Shown here piece by piece: positions 4,469 to 39,857 of a DNA stretch of 64,000 nt. Position 1 is the first letter of the stretch. Each line of letters begins with the position of its first letter. Position numbers and translations under genes: made by a program. Source of the stretch: Gallaecimonas sp. GXIMD4217 (GTDB lineage: Bacteria > Pseudomonadota > Gammaproteobacteria > Enterobacterales > Gallaecimonadaceae); the NCBI RefSeq assembly GCF_038087665.1, contig NZ_CP149925.1:248001-312000 (forward strand), read 5' to 3'. The notes under the pieces were generated by a model. That model was not told the DNA's origin, made no database searches, and was given only the letters and a program-made list of their open reading frames with translations.

Positions 4469-7285
<2,817 letters not shown>

Positions 7286-7314
7286 GATGCGCCTTGCCGA
7301 GGAATAAACGACCC

Positions 7315-7358
7315 AGTATCGCACAGCCAATGGCCGTACCCAATGGCTGTGCTATCAT
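7315..7358. promoter_or_regulatory. Overlapping divergent promoters of uvrA and MFS gene in an inverted repeat
   Basis: Leftward promoter: TTGGGT (7343-7338, reverse strand), a 17-base spacer and extended -10 TGC-GATACT (ending at 7315). Rightward: extended -10 TGC-TATCAT (7353-7358) with a poor -35. The two -10 elements lie immediately outside a 9-base inverted repeat, GCACAGCCA (7321-7329) and TGGCTGTGC (7344-7352). A protein bound to the repeat could control both genes. The pattern CTGT-N8-ACAG expected of LexA is absent. The promoter calls are by eye. Confidence 0.55.
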
Positions 7359-7387
7359 GGCGCCCCCGACCAAGACCGCTTCCTGCA

Positions 7388-8752
7388 ATGCGCACTACAG
7401 GCCTGACCAAGACTGAAAAACGAGCCGCACTGACCCTGGCTTCCGTGTTTTCGCTGCGGATGCTGGGACTGTTCATGATCATGCCGGTGTTCGCCCTCTA
7501 TGGCAGGGAGCTGGTCGGCTATTCGCCGCTCTGGGTGGGCCTGGCCATAGGGGCCTACGGCCTGACCCAGGCGCTGCTGCAGATCCCCATGGGCATGCTC
7601 TCGGATCGCTTCGGGCGCCGCAGGGTGATCCTGGCCGGCCTGGCGCTCTTTGCCGTCGGCTCTGTGGTGGCGGCGCTGGCGGACAGCGTCTACGGCGTGG
7701 TGGCCGGGCGGGTGCTGCAGGGGGCCGGCGCCGTGGCCTCGGCGATCCTGGCCCTGGCGGCGGATCTCAGCCGCGACGAACAGCGGCCCAAGGTGATGGG
7801 CATCATCGGCGTCTGCATCGGCCTGTCCTTTGCCCTGGCCATGGTGACCGGCCCGGTGGTGGCGGATCTGGTGGGGCTGAGCGGCCTGTTCTGGCTGACC
7901 GCCGTCCTGGCCCTGGCCGGCATGGCGGTGATCGCCTGGGCCGTGCCCTCGGTCAGCCATCATGCCCCCAGGGGCGATACCCTGCCGGCCCTGAACCGGC
8001 TCGGTGCCCTGCTCGGTAACGGCCAGCTGCTGCGCCTGGATCTTGGCATCTTCCTGCTGCACTTCATGCTCACGGCGCTGTTCGTGGTGGTGCCCGGGCT
8101 GCTGGTTCAGGCCGGGCTGGTGTCACGGGACCACTGGATGCTGTACTTCCCGGTGGTGGTGGCGGCCTTCTTCGCCATGATCCCCATGATCATCCTGGCC
8201 GAGAAGAAGCACTGGTCGCGGCAGATGGTGCAGCTGGCCCTGGTGATCATGCTGGCGGCCCTGGCCGCGGCCTGGTGGCTGCAGGCCCAGCTGTGGGGCC
8301 TGGTACTGGCCCTGGGGCTGTTCTTCATGGCCTTCAATTACCTGGAGGCGACCCTGCCGGCGCTGATCGCCCGTATCGCCCCGGCCGGCGACAAGGGCAG
8401 CGCCATGGGCATCTACTCGTCGGCACAGTTTCTGGGCGCCTTTTTCGGTGGCACCCTGGCGGGGACCATGGCAGAGTATGCGGATATCGACGGCGTCTTT
8501 ATCCTGGCCGCCGGCCTGGTGCTGATCTGGCTGCTGGCCAGCCGTGGCATGCGCCACCCCAGCAACCTGAAGTCCGTCTCCCTGAGCGTCGAGCAGGCGT
8601 TCACCGACGAGGCGGCGCTGATCCGGGGATTGGCAGCCGTGCCGGGGGTTCTGGAGGTCAATGTGGTGACCGCGGAAGCCGCCATCTATTTGAAAGTGAA
8701 TACGCAAGAATTTGAGTTAGCGAAGGCGAAAGCCGTCCTGGCAAACGCCTGA
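7388..8752 (+). CDS. yajR: MFS transporter, YajR-like, with C-terminal ferredoxin-like domain
   Basis: The 454 residues match the length of E. coli YajR. Twelve membrane segments are apparent. The motif-A loop [13 protein letters not shown] near residue 75 is diagnostic of the major facilitator superfamily. After the last helix, about 60 residues (from [13 protein letters not shown]) form a soluble domain resembling the YAM domain of YajR, ending [17 protein letters not shown]. It is a probable proton-coupled drug or metabolite exporter of unknown substrate. ATG 7388 was chosen because it fits homologues and the divergent promoter; longer in-frame starts run into uvrA. It sits 11 bases before ssb, so read-through into ssb is likely. 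Orthology to YajR is inferred. Confidence 0.85.
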
Positions 8753-8763
8753 CAGGAGCAGAA

Positions 8764-9366
8764 ATGGCCAGTCGTGGAGTCAACAAAGTCATCATAGTGG
8801 GCAACCTGGGCCAGGACCCGGAAGTCCGCTACATGCCCAACGGCAATGCCGTTGCCAATTTCACCGTCGCCACCAGCGAAAGCTGGAAGGACAAGCAGAC
8901 AGGTGAGCAGAAAGAGCAGACCGAATGGCACCGCATCGTCATGTACCGTCGCCTGGCCGAGATCGCCGGCGAGTACCTGCGCAAGGGCTCCAAGGTCTAT
9001 ATCGAAGGTCGCCTGCAGACCCGCAAGTGGCAGGGCCAGGACGGTCAGGATCGCTACACCACAGAGATCGTTGCCAACGAGATGCAGATGCTGGACTCCC
9101 GTAGCGGTGGCCAGGGCGGCGGCCAGGGTGGCTTCCAGCCCAAGCCGGCCCAGCAGCAGGGCGGCTTCGGCGGCCAGCAGGGTGGCCAGGGCGGCTACGG
9201 CGGCCAGCAGGGCGGCCAGGGTGGCTACGGTGGCCAGCAGGGCGGGCAGCAGCAGGGCGGCTTCCAGCCCAAGCCTCAGCCGGCCCCCCAGCAGAACAAG
9301 CCCCAGGGCGGCTACGGCGATCCCATGGAACCGCCCATGGATTTCGACGACGATATCCCGTTCTGA
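8764..9366 (+). CDS. ssb: Single-stranded DNA-binding protein
   Basis: A 200-residue SSB. The OB fold occupies residues 1 to about 112 ([20 protein letters not shown], then VATSESWKD and [16 protein letters not shown]). A Gly/Gln-rich disordered linker follows from about 115 to 185. The acidic tip MDFDDDIPF recruits RecQ, exonuclease I, PriA and other repair proteins. The linker contains a 10-residue unit [10 protein letters not shown] repeated in tandem. A good AGGAG lies 6 bases before ATG. The uvrA-MFS-ssb order keeps the uvrA/ssb neighbourhood known from many gammaproteobacteria, with the transporter in between. Confidence 0.97.
9169..9255 (+). repeat. 30-bp tandem repeat in the SSB linker
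   Basis: Two full 30-base units (9169-9198, 9199-9228) and a third diverging unit encode [10 protein letters not shown]. Because the unit is a multiple of three, gain or loss changes linker length without frameshift. Confidence 0.8.
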
Positions 9367-9373
9367 CCCACTG

Positions 9374-9400
9374 AAAAGGCAGCCATTGGCTGCCTTTTGT
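9374..9400 (+). terminator. Terminator after ssb
   Basis: The perfect 11-base stem AAAAGGCAGCC/GGCTGCCTTTT with an ATT loop lies 8 bases after the ssb stop. Confidence 0.9.
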
Positions 9401-9418
9401 CTTTTCTAGGAGCAAGGA

Positions 9419-11017
9419 ATGCAGTGGATGGCAAACGGCAAGGGGGTCCTGGCGGCCCTGGTGCTGCACCTGGTCGGTCTGGGCTGGCTGTTGCTGTGCC
9501 TGTGGCAGCCCGAGCCGACGCCCCTGGCGGCGCTCCCGGCCCTGGTGGTGATGCTGTCGACCCTGGCCTGGCTGGGCTGGCTGTATTTCTACCGCGAGCG
9601 CCGGGAGCTGGTCCTGGCGCAGCAGCTGCAGGGGCTGCGTCGCCGCGCCGCCCAGGTGCTGGCCCAGGACGAAACTCAGCAGCTGCCGGAGGTGGCCCAG
9701 GCCCTGGACACCCTCAGGGACAGGGTCAGCTTCCTGGAACAGCAGCAATCCCGTTTCGACCACTTTATCCGCCAGTCCACCCTGCTGGATGCCGAGACCG
9801 GTATCGGCAACAGGTCCTTCTTCGAGCAGCGCCTGGCCGCCTGGCTGCAGGAGGTGGAGGGCAATGGTTTCGGCTGCCTGGTGATCCTGGAACTGCGTGG
9901 CCTGGAAAGGCTGGATGAGCGCCAGCGTCTGAACTGGTTGCAGCTGTTCATCGGCCAGCTGGATGCCCAGCTGCAGCAATGGCCTGACAGCCTGATGGCG
10001 CGCCTGGACGAGGACGACTTCGCACTGCTGCTGCCGCAGATGGGGCCAAGGGAAGGGCAGCAATTCACCCTCAAGCTGCTGAAGCTCATTGAGCGCCTGC
10101 CCCGGGAGGCGGCCATGTCCAGGGAGGACTGGTGCCACCTGGGCTGGGTGCTGTACCGCACCGGCGACGACGCCCTGGCCCTGCTGGAGCAGGCGGAAAT
10201 GGCCCTGCGCGCCGCCCAGGTCCAGGGCGCCAACGGCGTCATGGCCTACGAGGCCGAGGGGGCGCCCATCGCCGAGCAGGGCAGCGTGCGCTGGCGGGCC
10301 CTGCTGGAGCAGGTAGTGGCCCGCAGGCAGCTGCAGATCCTGCGGCTGCCGGTGTACCAGCTGGACGGCGATCTGCACCACTGGCGGGTGCGCTCCCAGA
10401 TCCGCGACAAGGACGGCTTCGAGATAGACGAGTCCATCTTCATGCCCATGGCCGTCAAGGTGGGCCAGGATCTGGCCCTGGAGCGGCAGTCCATGGCGCG
10501 GCTGCTGGACGCCCTGGCCAGGATCCGCTGCAAGGGCTGGCGGCTGACCCACAGGATCTGCGTCGACGCCCTGATGAACCGCGACTTCTTTGCCTGGCTC
10601 AAGGAGGCCCTGGCCGAGCATCGCGACATGCTGCCCAGCCTGACCCTGGCGGTCACCGAGTTCGAGGTGGTCCAGTTTGGTGACGGCCTGATAGGCCTGC
10701 TCAGGGAGCTGCGCAGCCTGGGCCTGGGGATCCAGGTGGAGCGGGTCGGCCAGGTGGTCACCGACACCGACTATGTGGCCGCCATACCGGTGTCCTCCAT
10801 CAAGCTGCACGGCAGCCTGGTGCGCCATATCGAGCGCCACGCCGGCAACCAGCTGGTGGTGCAGGGCCTGGTGCGGGCGGTGCTGGCGGTGGACGGGCTG
10901 GTGCTGGCCCAGGGCATCGGCACCGACGAGGAGCGCAACATGCTGAGCCGGCTCGGCGTGGACGGCGGCGACGGGCCCCTGTTCGGGCGGGGTCCCCAGG
11001 CGCTGCTGGAATCCTAG
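9419..11017 (+). CDS. csrD: CsrD/MshH-like degenerate GGDEF-EAL protein
   Basis: A 532-residue protein with two membrane segments near residues 10-30 and 38-58, a short coiled-coil-like stretch, then a GGDEF-type domain (about 120-285) and an EAL-type domain (about 295-525). The diguanylate cyclase signature is replaced by RLDEDDF near residue 197. The EAL motif position has no E-A-L triplet, so neither cyclase nor phosphodiesterase activity is expected. This matches CsrD (MshH in Vibrio), which in E. coli promotes RNase E-dependent decay of CsrB/CsrC small RNAs. It is shorter than E. coli CsrD (646). AGGA lies 8 bases before the ATG. The stop overlaps the stop of the opposing gene in a shared CTAG. 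Confidence 0.85.
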   Translation: MQWMANGKGVLAALVLHLVGLGWLLLCLWQPEPTPLAALPALVVMLSTLAWLGWLYFYRERRELVLAQQLQGLRRRAAQVLAQDETQQLPEVAQALDTLRDRVSFLEQQQSRFDHFIRQSTLLDAETGIGNRSFFEQRLAAWLQEVEGNGFGCLVILELRGLERLDERQRLNWLQLFIGQLDAQLQQWPDSLMARLDEDDFALLLPQMGPREGQQFTLKLLKLIERLPREAAMSREDWCHLGWVLYRTGDDALALLEQAEMALRAAQVQGANGVMAYEAEGAPIAEQGSVRWRALLEQVVARRQLQILRLPVYQLDGDLHHWRVRSQIRDKDGFEIDESIFMPMAVKVGQDLALERQSMARLLDALARIRCKGWRLTHRICVDALMNRDFFAWLKEALAEHRDMLPSLTLAVTEFEVVQFGDGLIGLLRELRSLGLGIQVERVGQVVTDTDYVAAIPVSSIKLHGSLVRHIERHAGNQLVVQGLVRAVLAVDGLVLAQGIGTDEERNMLSRLGVDGGDGPLFGRGPQALLES

Positions 11018-11907
11018 GGCCAGAGCCCCCTGCTGCGCAGGCCGGCCAGGCCCTGCAGGCCGCCGGTGTGGACCAGGATGATGTCCTTGCCGTCCAGCTC
11101 GCCGGCCAGCAGCCGCTGCCAGAAGGCGGCAAACAGCTTGCCGCTGTAGATGGGCTCCAGGGGAATGGCCAGCTCCCGTTCCAGCCAGAGGATCTGCGCC
11201 CTGAGCCCAGCGTCGAAACGGCCATAGCCGGGGCCTTCGTGACCCCACAGCAGCGACCAGTTGCCGGGATCCAGCTCCAACAGGGCGCTCACCCTGGCCT
11301 GCAGATCGTCCCTGACCACGGGCACCCCCAGCAGCCGACCGTGGCCCCCGGCGCCCTGTACCAGCCCGGCCAGGGTGCCGCCCGAGCCCACCGGCAGCCA
11401 GATCTCCCGCCACTCGGGCAGCTCGTCCAGCAGCTCCGCCACCCCGCGCAGCGCCAGGGCATTGGAGCCCCCCTCGGGTACCAGCAAGTGGTCGGGAAAG
11501 CGTGCCTGCCACTGGGCCAGCCAGTCCGGCTCCCGGCGCTGCCGGTACTGCTCCCGGCCGACGAAACTCAGGCCCATGCCCCTGGCCCGGCAGGCGCTCA
11601 GGGTGGGGTTGTCGGCGTAGGCGGGCTCGCCGCGGACCACGCCGTGGCAGGCTAGGCCGGCGCCTTCGCAGGCGGCGGCCAGGGCGTGCAGGTGGTTGGA
11701 AAAGGCGCCGCCGAAGCTGAGGATGCCGGCCCGGCCATCCTCCCTGGCCCGGGCCAGGCTGTACTTGAGCTTGCGCCACTTGTTGCCGGACACCAGCGGG
11801 TGGATCAGGTCGTCGCGCTTGACCCTCAGGGTCACGCCGCGCCGGGCCAGTTCCGGGTGCAGTAGCCTCTGGAGCGGCGAGGGCAGCATTAGTTGGCCGT
11901 AAGGCAT
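11014..11907 (-). CDS. PLP-dependent ACC deaminase / D-cysteine desulfhydrase family protein
   Basis: The 297-residue protein begins at the ATG at 11905-11907 (MPYGQLMLPSPLQRL). Key features are VKRDDLIHPLVSGNKWRKL (residues about 27-45), whose lysine is the expected pyridoxal-phosphate Schiff base, SFGGAFSNHLHALAAA, the glycine-rich PVGSGGTLAGL phosphate loop, and the C-terminal HTGGLQG. Family members cleave ACC or D-cysteine to ammonia, a keto acid and, for D-cysteine, sulfide; sequence alone does not decide the substrate. The gene lies antisense between csrD and mshI, two genes that are usually adjacent in MSHA clusters, so it interrupts that unit. Its stop codon shares CTAG 11014-11017 with csrD. 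Confidence 0.85.
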   Translation of the reverse strand: MPYGQLMLPSPLQRLLHPELARRGVTLRVKRDDLIHPLVSGNKWRKLKYSLARAREDGRAGILSFGGAFSNHLHALAAACEGAGLACHGVVRGEPAYADNPTLSACRARGMGLSFVGREQYRQRREPDWLAQWQARFPDHLLVPEGGSNALALRGVAELLDELPEWREIWLPVGSGGTLAGLVQGAGGHGRLLGVPVVRDDLQARVSALLELDPGNWSLLWGHEGPGYGRFDAGLRAQILWLERELAIPLEPIYSGKLFAAFWQRLLAGELDGKDIILVHTGGLQGLAGLRSRGLWP

Positions 11908-35641: not shown

Positions 35642-36473
35642 ACTGACGGTGCTGCAGATGGTGTCCGTACCGGACGTCAATGCCAACCTGGACTTCGTGG
35701 AGCAGCAGCTGTCGGCCATGCCCAGGGAGCCGCGGCTGGTGGTGTTGCCGGAATGCTTTGCCTGCTTCGGCGGCAAGGACAGGGCCCAGCTGGCCATTGC
35801 CGAGCCCTTTGGCGAGGGCCCCATCCAGAAACGCCTGGCGGACATGGCCAGGCGCCACGGGCTCTGGCTGGTCAGCGGCACCCTGCCCATCCAGAGCGCC
35901 GATCCGGACCGTTTCTTCGCCGCCTCGCTGCTGTTCGACGACCAGGGCCAGATCCGCGCCCGCTTCGACAAGATGCACCTGTTCGATGTCAAGGTCGCCG
36001 ACAACACCGGCACCTATGCCGAATCGGCCACCACGGTGCCGGGCCATGCCCCCACCGTGGTCGACACGCCCTTTGGCCGCCTGGGCATGGCGGTCTGTTA
36101 TGATATCCGCTTTGCCGAGCTCTTCGCCTTCTACCGCCAGGCCCAGGTGGACATCCTGGTGCTGCCGGCGGCCTTCACCGCCAAGACCGGCCAGGCCCAC
36201 TGGGAGGTGCTGTGCCGGGCCAGGGCCATCGAAGGCCAGTGCTGGCTGCTGGGCGCCAACCAGGGCGGCAGCCATGCCAACGGCCGGGAAACCTGGGGCC
36301 ACTCGATGATCGTCAACCCCTGGGGCGAGGTAGTGGCGGAGCTGGGACTGGGGCCAGGCCAGTTGAGCACCAGCCTGGATGAGCGCCTGGCCGGGCAGAT
36401 CCGCCAGGCCATGCCGGTGGACAAGCACCGCAGATTCACCCTGACACCGCCCGACATCAAGGAGCATTCATGA
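35634..36473 (+). CDS. Carbon-nitrogen hydrolase, Nit family
   Basis: A 279-residue nitrilase-superfamily protein from ATG 35634 (8-base overlap with yhdP; GGAGGAGA just upstream). The catalytic triad is visible: Glu in [11 protein letters not shown] (about residue 42), Lys in [11 protein letters not shown] (about 111) and Cys in MAVCYDIRF (about 154). Nit-type enzymes are usually amidases that repair deaminated glutathione; that substrate is an inference from the family. It lies between yhdP and tldD and overlaps tldD by 4 bases. Confidence 0.9.
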
Positions 36474-37918
36474 GTCATTTTCAGCAGGTGGCCGACCGCA
36501 TTCTGGCCCCCGCCGGGCTGTCGCCGATTGAACTGGAACAGGTACTGGGCCGCATTCACCGGCACCAGGTGGATTATTCCGATCTCTATTTCCAGGCCTC
36601 CAGCCACGAGGCCTGGGTGCTGGAAGACGGCATCGTCAAGGAAGGCAGTTTCAACATCGAACGCGGCGTGGGCGTACGCGCCTGCAGCGGCGAAAAGACC
36701 GGTTTCTCCTACGCGGAGGAGATCAGCCTGGAGGCCCTGAACCAGGCCGCCGATGCCGCCCGCAGCATTGCCGGCAGCGGTGGCGAGGGCCGCATCAAGG
36801 TGGCCGGCGCCGTTGCCGCCAAACCCCTGTACAGCGCCCTGGATCCCCTTGGCAGCCTTAGCGAGGCCGACAAGCTGGCCCTGCTCAAGGAAGTGGACGC
36901 CGAGGCCAGGCGCCTGGACAGCCACGTCAGCCAGGTGATCGTCTCCCTGGCCGGGGTCTACGAAGAGGTACTGGTGATGGCCAGCGACGGCACCCTGGCC
37001 AGTGACATCAGGCCCATGGTGCGCTGCAACTGCACCGTGCTGGTGGACAAGGACGGCCGCCGTGAGCGCGGCAGTGCCGGCGGCGGCGGCCGTTTCGGCT
37101 ACGACTACTTCACCCAGGTGGTGGACGGTGGCAAGCGGGCCCTGGGTTATGCCCGGGAGGCGGTGCGCATGGCCATGACCAACCTGGACGCGGCGCCGGC
37201 CCCGGCCGGCGAGCTGCCGGTGGTGCTGGGGGCCGGCTGGCCCGGCGTGCTGCTGCACGAGGCCGTGGGCCATGGCCTGGAAGGAGACTTCAACCGCCGC
37301 GGCACCTCCGCCTTTGCCGGTCGCATCGGCGAACGGGTGGCCGCCAAGGGCGTCACCGTGGTGGACGACGGCAGCATCGCCGAGCGCCGCGGCTCACTGA
37401 CGGTGGACGACGAAGGCACCCCGACCGGGGAGACGGTGCTGATCGAGGACGGCATCCTCAAGGGCTATATGCAGGACAAGCTCAATGCCCGCCTGATGGG
37501 CATGGCGCCCACCGGCAACGGCCGCCGCGAGTCCTATGCCCACCTGCCCATGCCGCGCATGACCAATACCTTTATGAGCAGCGGCAGCCATGATCCCGAG
37601 GAAATCATCGCCTCGGTGGACAGGGGCATCTACGCCCCCAACTTCGGTGGCGGCCAGGTGGACATCACCAGCGGCAAGTTCGTGTTCTCGGCCTCCGAGG
37701 CCTATTTGATCGAGAAGGGCCGCATCACCACCCCCATCCGCGGCGCCACCCTGATCGGCTCCGGGCCGGAGGTGATGCAGCGGATCTCCATGATCGGCAA
37801 CGACAGCAGGCTGGATCCCGGCGTCGGCGTCTGCGGCAAGGACGGCCAGTCGGTGCCGGTGGGGGTCGGCCAGCCGACCCTGAAGATAGACGCCATCACC
37901 ATAGGCGGCACCGAATAA
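36470..37918 (+). CDS. tldD: Metalloprotease TldD
   Basis: A 482-residue TldD. The [11 protein letters not shown] motif near residues 262-272 is the zinc-binding HExxxH of the family. It forms a heterodimeric protease with PmbA (TldE), also encoded in this window at 39970-41313. The pair degrades unfolded peptides and processes microcin B17 and CcdA in E. coli. The start overlaps the nitrilase stop in ATGA. Confidence 0.96.
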
Positions 37919-37919
37919 C

Positions 37920-37946
37920 AAAAAGCCCGGCTCAGCCGGGCTTTTT
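37920..37946. terminator. Terminator after tldD
   Basis: AAAAAGCCCGGCT/AGCCGGGCTTTTT lies just after the tldD stop. Because it is A-rich on the left and T-rich on the right it works in both directions, and before the insertion described below it probably also served the opposing 63-residue gene. Confidence 0.9.
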
Positions 37947-37997
37947 GTCAGTAGTAACCATCTTCGGGGTTGTGTACCTGGGGGTCTTCCAGCACGG
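37947..37997. repeat. 51-bp direct repeat, copy 1 (orphan 3' end of the 63-residue gene)
   Basis: Matches 39076-39126 at 50 of 51 positions, in the same orientation. It contains the stop and last 15 or so codons of the gene at 39077-39268 without the rest of that gene. The single difference (G at 37986 versus A in copy 2) is a synonymous GAC/GAT aspartate codon in the gene's frame. It marks the left edge of the AT-rich insertion. Confidence 0.95.
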
Positions 37998-38030
37998 TTT
38001 AGTGCTTACGTTGTTTTCAAAGTGTTGCTG

Positions 38031-38061
38031 TTGTGTTTCTTGTTTGGGGGGGGGGTAAGAT
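38031..38061 (+). promoter_or_regulatory. Candidate phase-variable promoter with a G10 tract
   Basis: TTGTGT (38031-38036) and TAAGAT (38056-38061) are separated by 19 bases, the last ten of which are an uninterrupted run of G (38046-38055). Slippage in such a tract would change the -35/-10 spacing, and loss of two G would give the optimal 17. A perfect palindrome CTCCTGTACAGGAG follows at 38070-38083. The promoter elements are assigned by eye. Confidence 0.45.
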
Positions 38062-38113
38062 CCAGCACACTCCTGTACAGGAGTTCGATCTTTTTGTTTT
38101 TGGAAGGAACCAA

Positions 38114-38989
38114 ATGAAAATTAAGTCCCTAGTGGCATCTGCCCTGATGCTGCCTTTTTTTGCCAATGCCGACATCAGCCTGCAGTGTGAAAACTGCAGT
38201 TCACCAGCCTCAGTTGCAAGAAATTTTATTGCCTCGACGACTAATGTGAATAGAGACGATGTGACGGTCTTTGATCTGACGAAGAGGCGCATCGATACAT
38301 TTCAAGTAGTCAAGGCTTGGGATCCTGAGCTGGGGCGATATAAGGTTTTCACGCAGCCAGTCAATACTCCAGAGGTGCTCAAGAATTCCTTTAATGGTAT
38401 TTTGGACGCCTTGGATGAGTTTGCGGTGATAGGGGCAATAAAGATTGGAGAGTCGGATACCGTGTATTATAACGGCTACACCCGTGCTCTACCGAATAAC
38501 GCTTACCAGACGGCGCAATACGATTATTATATAAATTACCTTACAACTTTTGTGAGCTCCGAAAGACGCATCAGGAGCGCGTTGGAAAAAGCCATCGCAG
38601 AAGTGAGTGACTGGGTAGGAGCTACTCAAATCGCAGGGAGCTCGATTAAGGTTCCAGATCATCTCAAAGCCATAAAGGTTGTTTATTCCGATGGCTCCTA
38701 TGAGTACTTTCAAGTTACCTTGCTTTCGTCTACCGAATTTACGCTTAAACCTATAGATGGCACAAGAACTGATGCGGATGGTAATCCCATTAAGAATGAT
38801 CAGAAAGGGTATGAGAGGATGGGGTTGGGCTTCTATGACCGCCAGAATCTTGAAAACTTTTTGGTCTATGCTGCATCACTGGGTATTTCGATTTCTGGGG
38901 ATATTCCCGATACGTCTTGCAGTGGCTGTAAGATAATAGACATGGATTGTACGAATAATGTCTGCACTCCCAAAAATAATGAGAGCTAG
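38114..38989 (+). CDS. Secreted cysteine-containing protein of unknown function
   Basis: A 291-residue protein I do not recognise. Signal peptide MKIKSLVASALMLPFFANA with cleavage before DISLQ. Six cysteines are visible in two clusters: CENC at residues 25-28 directly after the signal peptide, and CSGC (269-272), Cys279 and Cys284 at the extreme C-terminus. The middle is rich in Tyr, Asp and Asn, with no membrane segment or known catalytic motif that I can identify. ATG 38114 has GGAAGGA 6 bases upstream. A longer in-frame start at 38033 would read through the G10 tract and hide the signal peptide, so it is unlikely. Base and codon use are foreign to the surroundings, which suggests horizontal acquisition. 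It is the only gene of the inserted segment. Confidence 0.8.
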   Translation: MKIKSLVASALMLPFFANADISLQCENCSSPASVARNFIASTTNVNRDDVTVFDLTKRRIDTFQVVKAWDPELGRYKVFTQPVNTPEVLKNSFNGILDALDEFAVIGAIKIGESDTVYYNGYTRALPNNAYQTAQYDYYINYLTTFVSSERRIRSALEKAIAEVSDWVGATQIAGSSIKVPDHLKAIKVVYSDGSYEYFQVTLLSSTEFTLKPIDGTRTDADGNPIKNDQKGYERMGLGFYDRQNLENFLVYAASLGISISGDIPDTSCSGCKIIDMDCTNNVCTPKNNES

Positions 38990-39031
38990 CACTAGCTTTA
39001 GTCTTACATTTCCAAGGTAATAATAAAAATA

Positions 39032-39056
39032 GAAAGGGGCGGAATGCCCCTTTCGT
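39032..39056 (+). terminator. Terminator of the inserted gene
   Basis: GAAAGGGGC and GCCCCTTTC (39046-39054) with a GGAAT loop lie about 40 bases after the stop. The run of T is short and is followed by an AT-rich tail. Confidence 0.75.
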
Positions 39057-39075
39057 ATATATAAAAACCGATAGG

Positions 39076-39126
39076 GTCAGTAGTAACCATCTTCGGGGTT
39101 GTGTACCTGGGGATCTTCCAGCACGG
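39076..39126. repeat. 51-bp direct repeat, copy 2 (functional 3' end of the 63-residue gene)
   Basis: Partner of 37947-37997 (50/51 identical). This copy is continuous with the body of the gene on the reverse strand and supplies its stop and last 15 or so codons. Confidence 0.95.
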
Positions 39127-39268
39127 CGGAGAAATCCACCTCGAACTCGTGCTTGTCGAACTGGTCCTGCAGGCGCAGCTTGCGGTGCTCCCTGTCCACG
39201 CTGACCACCCAGCCGCAGCCCTGGCGGGTGGCGCAGAGCATGCCTTCGTGCAGTTTGTTGACGTCCAT
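39077..39268 (-). CDS. Small conserved-looking protein of unknown function (63 residues)
   Basis: Sixty-three residues, MDVNKLHEGMLCATRQGCGW and onward, with a strong ribosome binding site (TAAGGAGG) 5 bases before the start and codon use like the core genome. The N-terminal part suggests a small beta-barrel (GMLCATRQGCGWVVSVDRE), and the C-terminus is acidic. Two cysteines are at 12 and 18. I do not recognise a family. Its 3' end was the site of the neighbouring insertion but its frame is intact. Confidence 0.75.
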   Translation of the reverse strand: MDVNKLHEGMLCATRQGCGWVVSVDREHRKLRLQDQFDKHEFEVDFSAVLEDPQVHNPEDGYY

Positions 39269-39344: not shown

Positions 39345-39857
39345 TCAGTCGGTCAGGATGCCCTTGAGCAGCTGGAACAGCTCCCGGTAGGACTTGGGTG
39401 CCTTGTTGGCAGCCTTCTCCTTCTTGGTCTGGCGGACCAGCTGGCGCAGGCGCTGGATCTCCACCTGGGGATACTGCTCGATGAAGGCCTGGAGTTGGGC
39501 GTTGTCGCCGTCCACCAGCTTGTCGCGCCACTGCTCCACCAGGTGCAGCTTGGCGTTTTCCAGGGCATGGCGGTTCTTGATCTTGTCAAGGGCCTGCTGG
39601 ATGGGCTCGGGATCCCGTGCACGCATCAGCTTGCCGATGTACTGGCGCTGGCGGCGGAAGGCCTCGTGCTTCTTGCGGATGCGCTGGGCCAGCTCGATGG
39701 CCTCCAGCAGATCCTCGTCCAGGGGGATGGTCTTGAGCTGGCTGGCAGTGAGTTCGATCAGCTCATTGCCCAGATCCTGCAGGGCTTCGCTGTCGCGCTT
39801 CAGTTCGCTCTTGGATACGTAGATGATTTCTTCGTCGTCTTTCTCGAAGTCGCTCAT
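39345..39857 (-). CDS. darP: Ribosome-associated protein DarP (YjgA)
   Basis: The 170-residue acidic/helical protein starts [20 protein letters not shown]. It matches YjgA/DarP in the N-terminal [15 protein letters not shown] and the central LPLDE-like [12 protein letters not shown], followed by a charged helix ([20 protein letters not shown]). DarP binds late 50S precursors and stabilises active centres of the large subunit in E. coli. It is divergent from pmbA, as yjgA and pmbA are neighbours in many gammaproteobacteria. In-frame codons upstream of 39857 run into the pmbA side and are not credible. Confidence 0.9.

Follow-up and report, generated by a model that had tools for sequence, protein, structure and literature searches.

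Gene arrangement between the tldD-like and darP-like genes

In the window, the whole 64-kb stretch of Gallaecimonas DNA that was analysed, a foreign-looking insertion and a spare gene end are found at a small gene for 63 residues, situated between a tldD-like and a darP-like gene. The names of the neighbouring genes are tentative, being taken over from an earlier note or assigned by eye; we take the ORF at 36470..37918 to be a tldD-like gene, and the ORF at 39345..39857 presumably is a darP-like gene. The junction is composed as follows:

36470..37918, plus strand: tldD-like gene, ORF of 482 aa, on the left side of the junction
37918..37948, no strand: terminator-like hairpin behind the tldD-like gene, 15-nt perfect inverted repeat plus T run
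37947..37997, minus strand: repeat copy 1, a displaced end of the 63-residue gene that matches copy 2 at 50/51 positions
37998..39075, no strand: AT-rich insert of 1078 bp, GC 0.44, recognised by composition
38114..38989, plus strand: cargo gene, 291 aa, for a probably exported protein (ORF and 11-protein alignment)
39032..39054, no strand: GC-rich terminator-like hairpin on the right-hand side of the insert, with the cargo gene on its left and the 63-residue gene on its right (by eye)
39076..39126, minus strand: repeat copy 2, the present 3' end of the 63-residue gene (repeat comparison)
39077..39268, minus strand: 63-residue gene (ORF)
39345..39857, minus strand: darP-like gene on the right side of the junction, found once in each of five congeners

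The end of the 63-residue gene, i.e. the stop and the last 15-16 codons, is present twice in the form of a 51-bp direct repeat (37947-37997 and 39076-39126) with a spacing of 1129 bp and identity at 50/51 positions, just as an earlier note on this DNA had described. The sole mismatch is GAC/GAT in an Asp codon and is indeed synonymous, and copy 1 lies, as claimed, directly against the tldD terminator: it begins at the foot of the hairpin (37918-37948) behind the tldD-like ORF that ends at 37918. A list of direct repeats in the window (26 bp or longer, no more than 8 kb apart) comprises 16 families, of which the 51-bp pair alone exceeds 95% identity, and a second repeat scan of the window yielded an extra 27-bp pair (96%) residing within one ORF. 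By our own arithmetic, the chance of finding such a 51-bp pair in random sequence is below 1e-18.

With a GC content of 0.44 versus 0.64-0.72 in most flanking windows and a single gene for a probably exported protein, the segment is as foreign-looking as had been stated. The statement that no recombinase is encoded also holds, since none is recognisable in the one-gene insert (37998-39075), and no inverted repeat of at least 12 nt pairs the two insert ends. The earlier note had further proposed a search for other copies of the segment ends. The segment as a whole occurs once in the genome (complete, 3.35 Mb), where other short matches concern the terminator part only, and has no match when compared with plasmids. 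Relatives of the cargo reside at a second locus of the same genome (L036) and in a congener (L037 in G001). A run of ten G (38046-38055) about 60 bp before the cargo ATG is a possible phase-variable spot and is adjoined by a 16-bp palindrome (38069-38084).

The cargo gene and its family

The ATG at 38114 provides the cargo protein with a signal-peptide-like start as judged by eye; the ORF list has GTG at 38033. In an alignment of 11 proteins, cysteines C25, C28, C279 and C284 are invariant. Members of the family comprise about 270-290 residues, share the signal-peptide-like start and are thinly spread, with 11 genomes out of 394 in the order and 4 out of 369 in the class encoding one (both draws include the genome of the window; weak matches in G017, G204 and G234 stand outside the flanking-repeat analysis). 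Pfam, searched with the window protein only, returned two matches, both far below cut-off, and no match was obtained in NCBIfam and PHROGs at the limits used. Neither viral contigs nor genome contigs contained a relative of the cargo, and a rescan of the genome contigs with a two-row alignment led to two loci, both of them already among those from the genome search. Structure prediction from three sequences gave a mean pLDDT of 37.9, too low to be informative.

Ten cargo-family loci were analysed for flanking repeats, with L077-L080 left out and L066, which carries two tandem family genes, represented by part of one gene. Strong direct repeats are present at three of them, all in the genus (window, L036, L037), and at neither the cargo locus of G004 nor the six loci outside the genus. 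The three repeats are mutually unrelated in sequence and range in length from 27 to about 550 bp. A donor molecule carrying this cargo beside the end of the 63-residue gene was not noticed among the cargo-family loci listed, from which L077-L080 are again left out.

The junction in congeneric species

Our comparison set consists of five congeneric species (G000-G004), G000 being the genome of the window. Each of the other four contains one full-length match for the tldD-like gene (77-78%) plus a weak second match. The tldD-like and darP-like genes are kept in all five with differing content between them, the G003 interval being broken by contig ends, so that different genes between conserved neighbours, as in the definition of minimal mobile elements, are found across five congeneric species (not strains). 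The AT-rich insert itself was not seen at the junction in the four other congeners, again with the G003 interval broken. Genomes G001 and G002 have a similar transporter-type cluster in the interval (by eye) and lack the 63-residue gene altogether, for which there is one match in G003 and three in G004. In the latter, 63-residue genes form a run of three; two of these encode identical proteins and belong to a tandem 604-bp unit with a 300-bp core that is 99% identical. No more than about 20 bp, and no cargo, separate the end of the first of these homologous genes from the terminator of the tldD-like gene, and this junction appears empty-site-like in a comparison between species. Comparing the tldD-darP interval across relatives, in keeping with the suggestion of the earlier note, has uncovered different content and one junction resembling an empty site, and no true empty site among these other species.

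In G003, a different small gene with an exported-like start precedes the 63-residue gene and is flanked by two terminator copies (35 bp, 97%; L042). The 63-residue gene itself may have been shuffled, because the protein of G000 shares more with the extra copies of G004 (45/63) than with those encoded on the tldD side in G004 (32/61) and G003 (33/62).

Further loci with members of the cargo family

A paralogue of the cargo gene is located elsewhere in G000 between identical 27-bp terminators (L036; 3772-3798 and 4774-4800, 27/27). At the corresponding site, the same two convergent genes are separated by just one terminator in G002 and G004 and by two different ones in G003; in G001 there is one terminator, and another small gene comes after it. 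Of the cases presented here, L036 offers the clearest empty-site comparison, though between species.

In G001, the cargo gene is situated behind purL (L037), and beyond the cargo a second copy of the purL end and of its downstream region follows (best match 550 bp, 68%). Duplicated purL ends are likewise present in G000, where the copies (135 bp, 89%) lie 163 bp apart and no cargo gene was seen, and in G004 (161 bp, 75%). No duplicated purL end is found in G002 and G003, though AT-rich genes lie behind purL there; by eye, they include toxin-antitoxin-like genes in G003 and an AT-rich ORF of 813 residues in G002. The 3' side of purL thus emerged as an insertion hotspot, the content of which differs among congeners (L092, L037, L093, L094, L095). 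The spare purL end of G004 matches the purL end of G003 at 25/28 positions and that of G002 at 23/28, compared with 19/28 for the end of its own gene. In G000 and G001, the spare end resembles its own gene most (72/75 and 106/120), a result that local duplication would also give.

Inspection by eye revealed an intergenic GC-rich repeat (L039, L042, L043, L094, L095, L037, L202), about 200-300 bp long and with its end near CACTTAACGGGC, between cargos in G001-G004. The same repeat, considered as a possible driver of insertion, is present beside the integron integrase of G004 and was not seen, also by eye, at the window insert. A search of L038, L039, L043, L094 and L095 against Rfam gave no match. 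The genome of the window contains a chromosomal integron of its own (L204; G000:C1:2058626-2059567 plus flanks), the integrase of which scores 390 bits against a cut-off of 265 and is adjoined by an AT-rich cassette and an attC-like site; such an integrase is also present in G002 and G004 and is stop-interrupted in G003.

Gene-end duplications in spaced scans

Evenly spaced 20-kb stretches, 40 from G000 and 20 each from G004, G001 and the control genome G009, were scanned for nearby direct repeats. They were spaced by hand and not at random, and those of G000 cover neither the window nor purL nor L036. Thresholds differed between passes: L172 and the G004 stretches were scanned in one pass only, L119 was found in two passes and dropped by the filter of the third, and L120 was found in two of three. 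Repeats inside one gene and paralogous genes (L116 flagellins; pairs L123, L129, L190, L197 and others) were left out of the counts, as were arrays of tRNA genes, the gene of a repeat protein (L140, L145), one CRISPR array (L175), one short tandem (L180), families of intergenic repeats (L105, L118, L158, L201), short matches of low strength (L102, L115) and, in G001, two pairs of identical terminators (L126, L130). The CRISPR array in G000 (L175, about 6000-11250) is long, with repeats of about 29 bp as seen by eye.

The 40 stretches of G000 contain three inserts between partial 3'-end copies: one of 698 bp between copies of 49 bp (L120), one of 1066 bp between copies of 110 bp (L121) and one of 983 bp between copies of 85 bp (L172). 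By eye, the first insert is a lipoprotein-like diverged copy of the neighbouring gene, the second carries an antiporter-like gene, and the third harbours two overlapping exported-protein-like pieces in different frames, the insert gene probably being frameshifted. Intact and spare copy at L172 are 97.6% identical over 85 bp; their last codons differ, and each has a stop. At L119, three gene ends are arranged in tandem without cargo. Four tandem gene-end arrays, none with an insert, are present in the 20 stretches of G004 (L183, L184, L185, L189); like L119, each of them consists of three or more copies of last codons plus downstream sequence. The 20 stretches of G001 hold no 3'-end case and two pairs of near-identical terminators, and no case was found in the 20 stretches of G009, a single distant control genome with a GC content of 0.41.

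How the insertion may have arisen

We favour, at a probability of about 0.45, the possibility that a single gene was inserted at the 3' end of a core gene via RecA-type recombination with a matching incoming gene end and without a recombinase specific to this site. The incoming piece would have carried the cargo beside a 3' end of the 63-residue gene. It may have been circularised and then integrated by a single crossover within the short shared end, or it may have paired on one side and been joined illegitimately on the other; either route would result in the order gene, cargo, duplicate gene end. Selection would presumably keep insertions at harmless places, for example gene ends. Both the entry route of the DNA and homologous recombination as the process are what we infer from the arrangement. 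An insertion driven by homology is suggested because the repeats are unrelated between sites, vary from 27 to about 550 bp and have the sequence of the gene that was hit, features that would not be predicted for a site-specific recombinase; the target duplication follows this gene in both length and sequence, as homologous recombination would have it. The geometry recurs with the same cargo family and with other cargos, the content of the sites differs in relatives, and the two copies at purL of G004 and at L172 look like alleles that have been brought together. A ComEC-type match is found in all five congeners and equally in 10 of 14 control genomes including E. coli.

Several points count against this proposal. 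Repeats as short as 51 and 27 bp come close to the minimum length for RecA, no donor was noticed among the cargo-family loci listed, and the 1/51 difference in the window is uninformative as it cannot be polarised. Strong flanking direct repeats are missing from 7/10 cargo-family loci (G004 and the six outside the genus), as is the duplicated purL end from G002 and G003 and a 3'-end case from the G001 stretches. The part of the literature considered here describes one-sided recombination as rare and as usually deleting recipient DNA (PMC3240628, PMC5361080), which also speaks against our proposal; the process has been proposed for displacement in T6SS effector arrays (PMC5361080, in part). In E. 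coli, 56 of 60 clones gave a PCR product diagnostic for duplication of the target locus, and the duplications, 109-950 bp in 14 sequenced clones, were attributed to a single crossover of a re-circularised molecule, with the four one-sided events being tied to deletions (PMC3240628). Because of this attribution and of the link between one-sided events and deletions, we favour the single crossover and regard one-sided recombination as a near alternative, the data not separating the two.

The idea of the earlier note that the replacement end stems from a diverged allele receives mixed answers: the difference in the window does not decide it, the spare purL end of G004 agrees with it (25/28 to G003 versus 19/28 to its own gene), and those of G000 and G001 are most similar to their own genes. 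The differing alleles are also relevant to the order of events. Gene ends could have been duplicated in tandem beforehand, by slippage or unequal exchange, with foreign DNA entering later between the copies or replacing part of an array. That duplication may come first is indicated by the tandem gene ends without cargo in G004 (L183, L184, L185, L189) and at L119 in G000, and is in line with the tandem arrangement of the whole 63-residue gene in the 604-bp unit of G004, with the insert of L120 being a diverged copy of its neighbour and with spare purL ends of G000 and G001 that are closest to their own genes. Against this order stands L036, where the terminator pair flanks the cargo and where just one terminator, not an array, is present in G002 and G004; nor would local duplication be expected to yield the differing alleles at the spare ends of L172 and of purL in G004. 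On balance we consider it rather improbable, yet worth keeping in view. The same alleles weigh on capture at a staggered double-strand break, the filled-in ends of which would become repeats, comparable to a long target-site duplication whose length varies. Such an event would be in keeping with repeats that are exact (27/27) or nearly so (50/51) and differ in length, as well as with a terminator palindrome as target in L036 and L042 (35 bp, 97%). The copies at purL of G004 and at L172, which differ like alleles and unlike decayed copies, make it unlikely.

Site-specific systems have to be considered as well. The earlier note pictured a small non-autonomous element that uses the gene end as attachment site and is mobilised by a tyrosine recombinase in trans. 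Its geometry at the 3' end of a gene and the five PF00589 matches in the genome, one of which is the integron integrase, would be compatible with that. Such an element becomes quite unlikely in view of one cargo family at three loci with three unrelated repeats and of other cargos at other genes. With regard to site-specific integrative elements at gene 3' ends in general, no integrase is recognisable in the insert (one gene, no significant family match), and no core repeat is common to all insertions. The data thus support an insertion that leaves a second gene end and do not support its site-specific nature. Features of a transposon, namely a duplication of fixed length and terminal inverted repeats, are not seen either. 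It is conceivable that the chromosomal integron integrase delivered a cassette to a secondary site, insofar as an integrase above the curated cut-off is encoded in 4/5 congeners including G000 and is accompanied by cassette-type recombination sites in G000, G002 and G004. No attC-like site exceeding the background was detected in the insert with a rough home-made scoring: the best attC-like score, 8.0, lies inside the cargo gene and near the median of the shuffles (7.5; 95% point 10.5, highest 14.0), and three control loci reach 11.0, 13.5 and 12.0. As cassette insertion is not known to duplicate its target, we regard this origin as extremely unlikely.

Relation to known systems and significance

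The minimal mobile elements of Neisseria comprise different genes between two conserved genes without mobility genes and are in this respect similar to the site described here; unlike here, duplicated gene ends are not known to belong to their definition. Phage morons are single foreign genes with their own signals between conserved genes, whereas the present gene is chromosomal and accompanied by a duplicated gene end. The displacement of T6SS effector and immunity genes in Vibrio cholerae, described together with orphan Rhs 3' ends in the part of PMC5361080 used here, resembles our case in that a new 3' module arrives with homology anchored in the gene and in that, according to the T6SS model, the former 3' part or immunity gene moves downstream and is retained. 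In T6SS arrays, however, the gene end itself is the selected toxin module, while an ordinary core gene and an unrelated one-gene cargo are involved here. One-sided homology and a partly duplicated target beside foreign DNA are shared with homology-facilitated illegitimate recombination and the re-circularised single crossover (PMC3240628, in part), which were observed in a laboratory conjugation assay, in contrast to the evolutionary process at several genes that we infer. In Streptococcus pneumoniae, transformation with partly repeated DNA also leads to duplications, but the merodiploids described in the pertinent part of PMC3784515 are large tandem duplications between repeats with no single-gene cargo. 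Replacement flexible genomic islands likewise vary in content by homologous recombination; they are large, and gene-end duplication is not stated in the title and the opening of the abstract of PMC4033161. Among mostly open-access papers we found none that describes duplicated gene ends around single-gene insertions as a pattern across a genome, and the terms genomic islands, integrons and competence do not occur in the Gallaecimonas genome paper PMC12539734.

The similar arrangements elsewhere in the genome and in relatives appear to point to a general recombination process and not to a private mobile element. It is conceivable, though in our estimation rather unlikely, that they reflect a previously undescribed general route of gene gain in the genus that acts at 3' ends and terminators and delivers mostly single genes for exported or membrane proteins, with terminators or gene-end repeats as preferred entry points and duplicated ends as the scars. 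Single foreign genes without mobility genes are common, and their route of arrival is often obscure. If each of them left a duplicated gene end behind as a scar, arrivals could be counted and dated, and the spare allele pieces could tell the source of the DNA. With its scars of this kind, the genus might serve as a model for how genes are gained at gene ends through homologous recombination.
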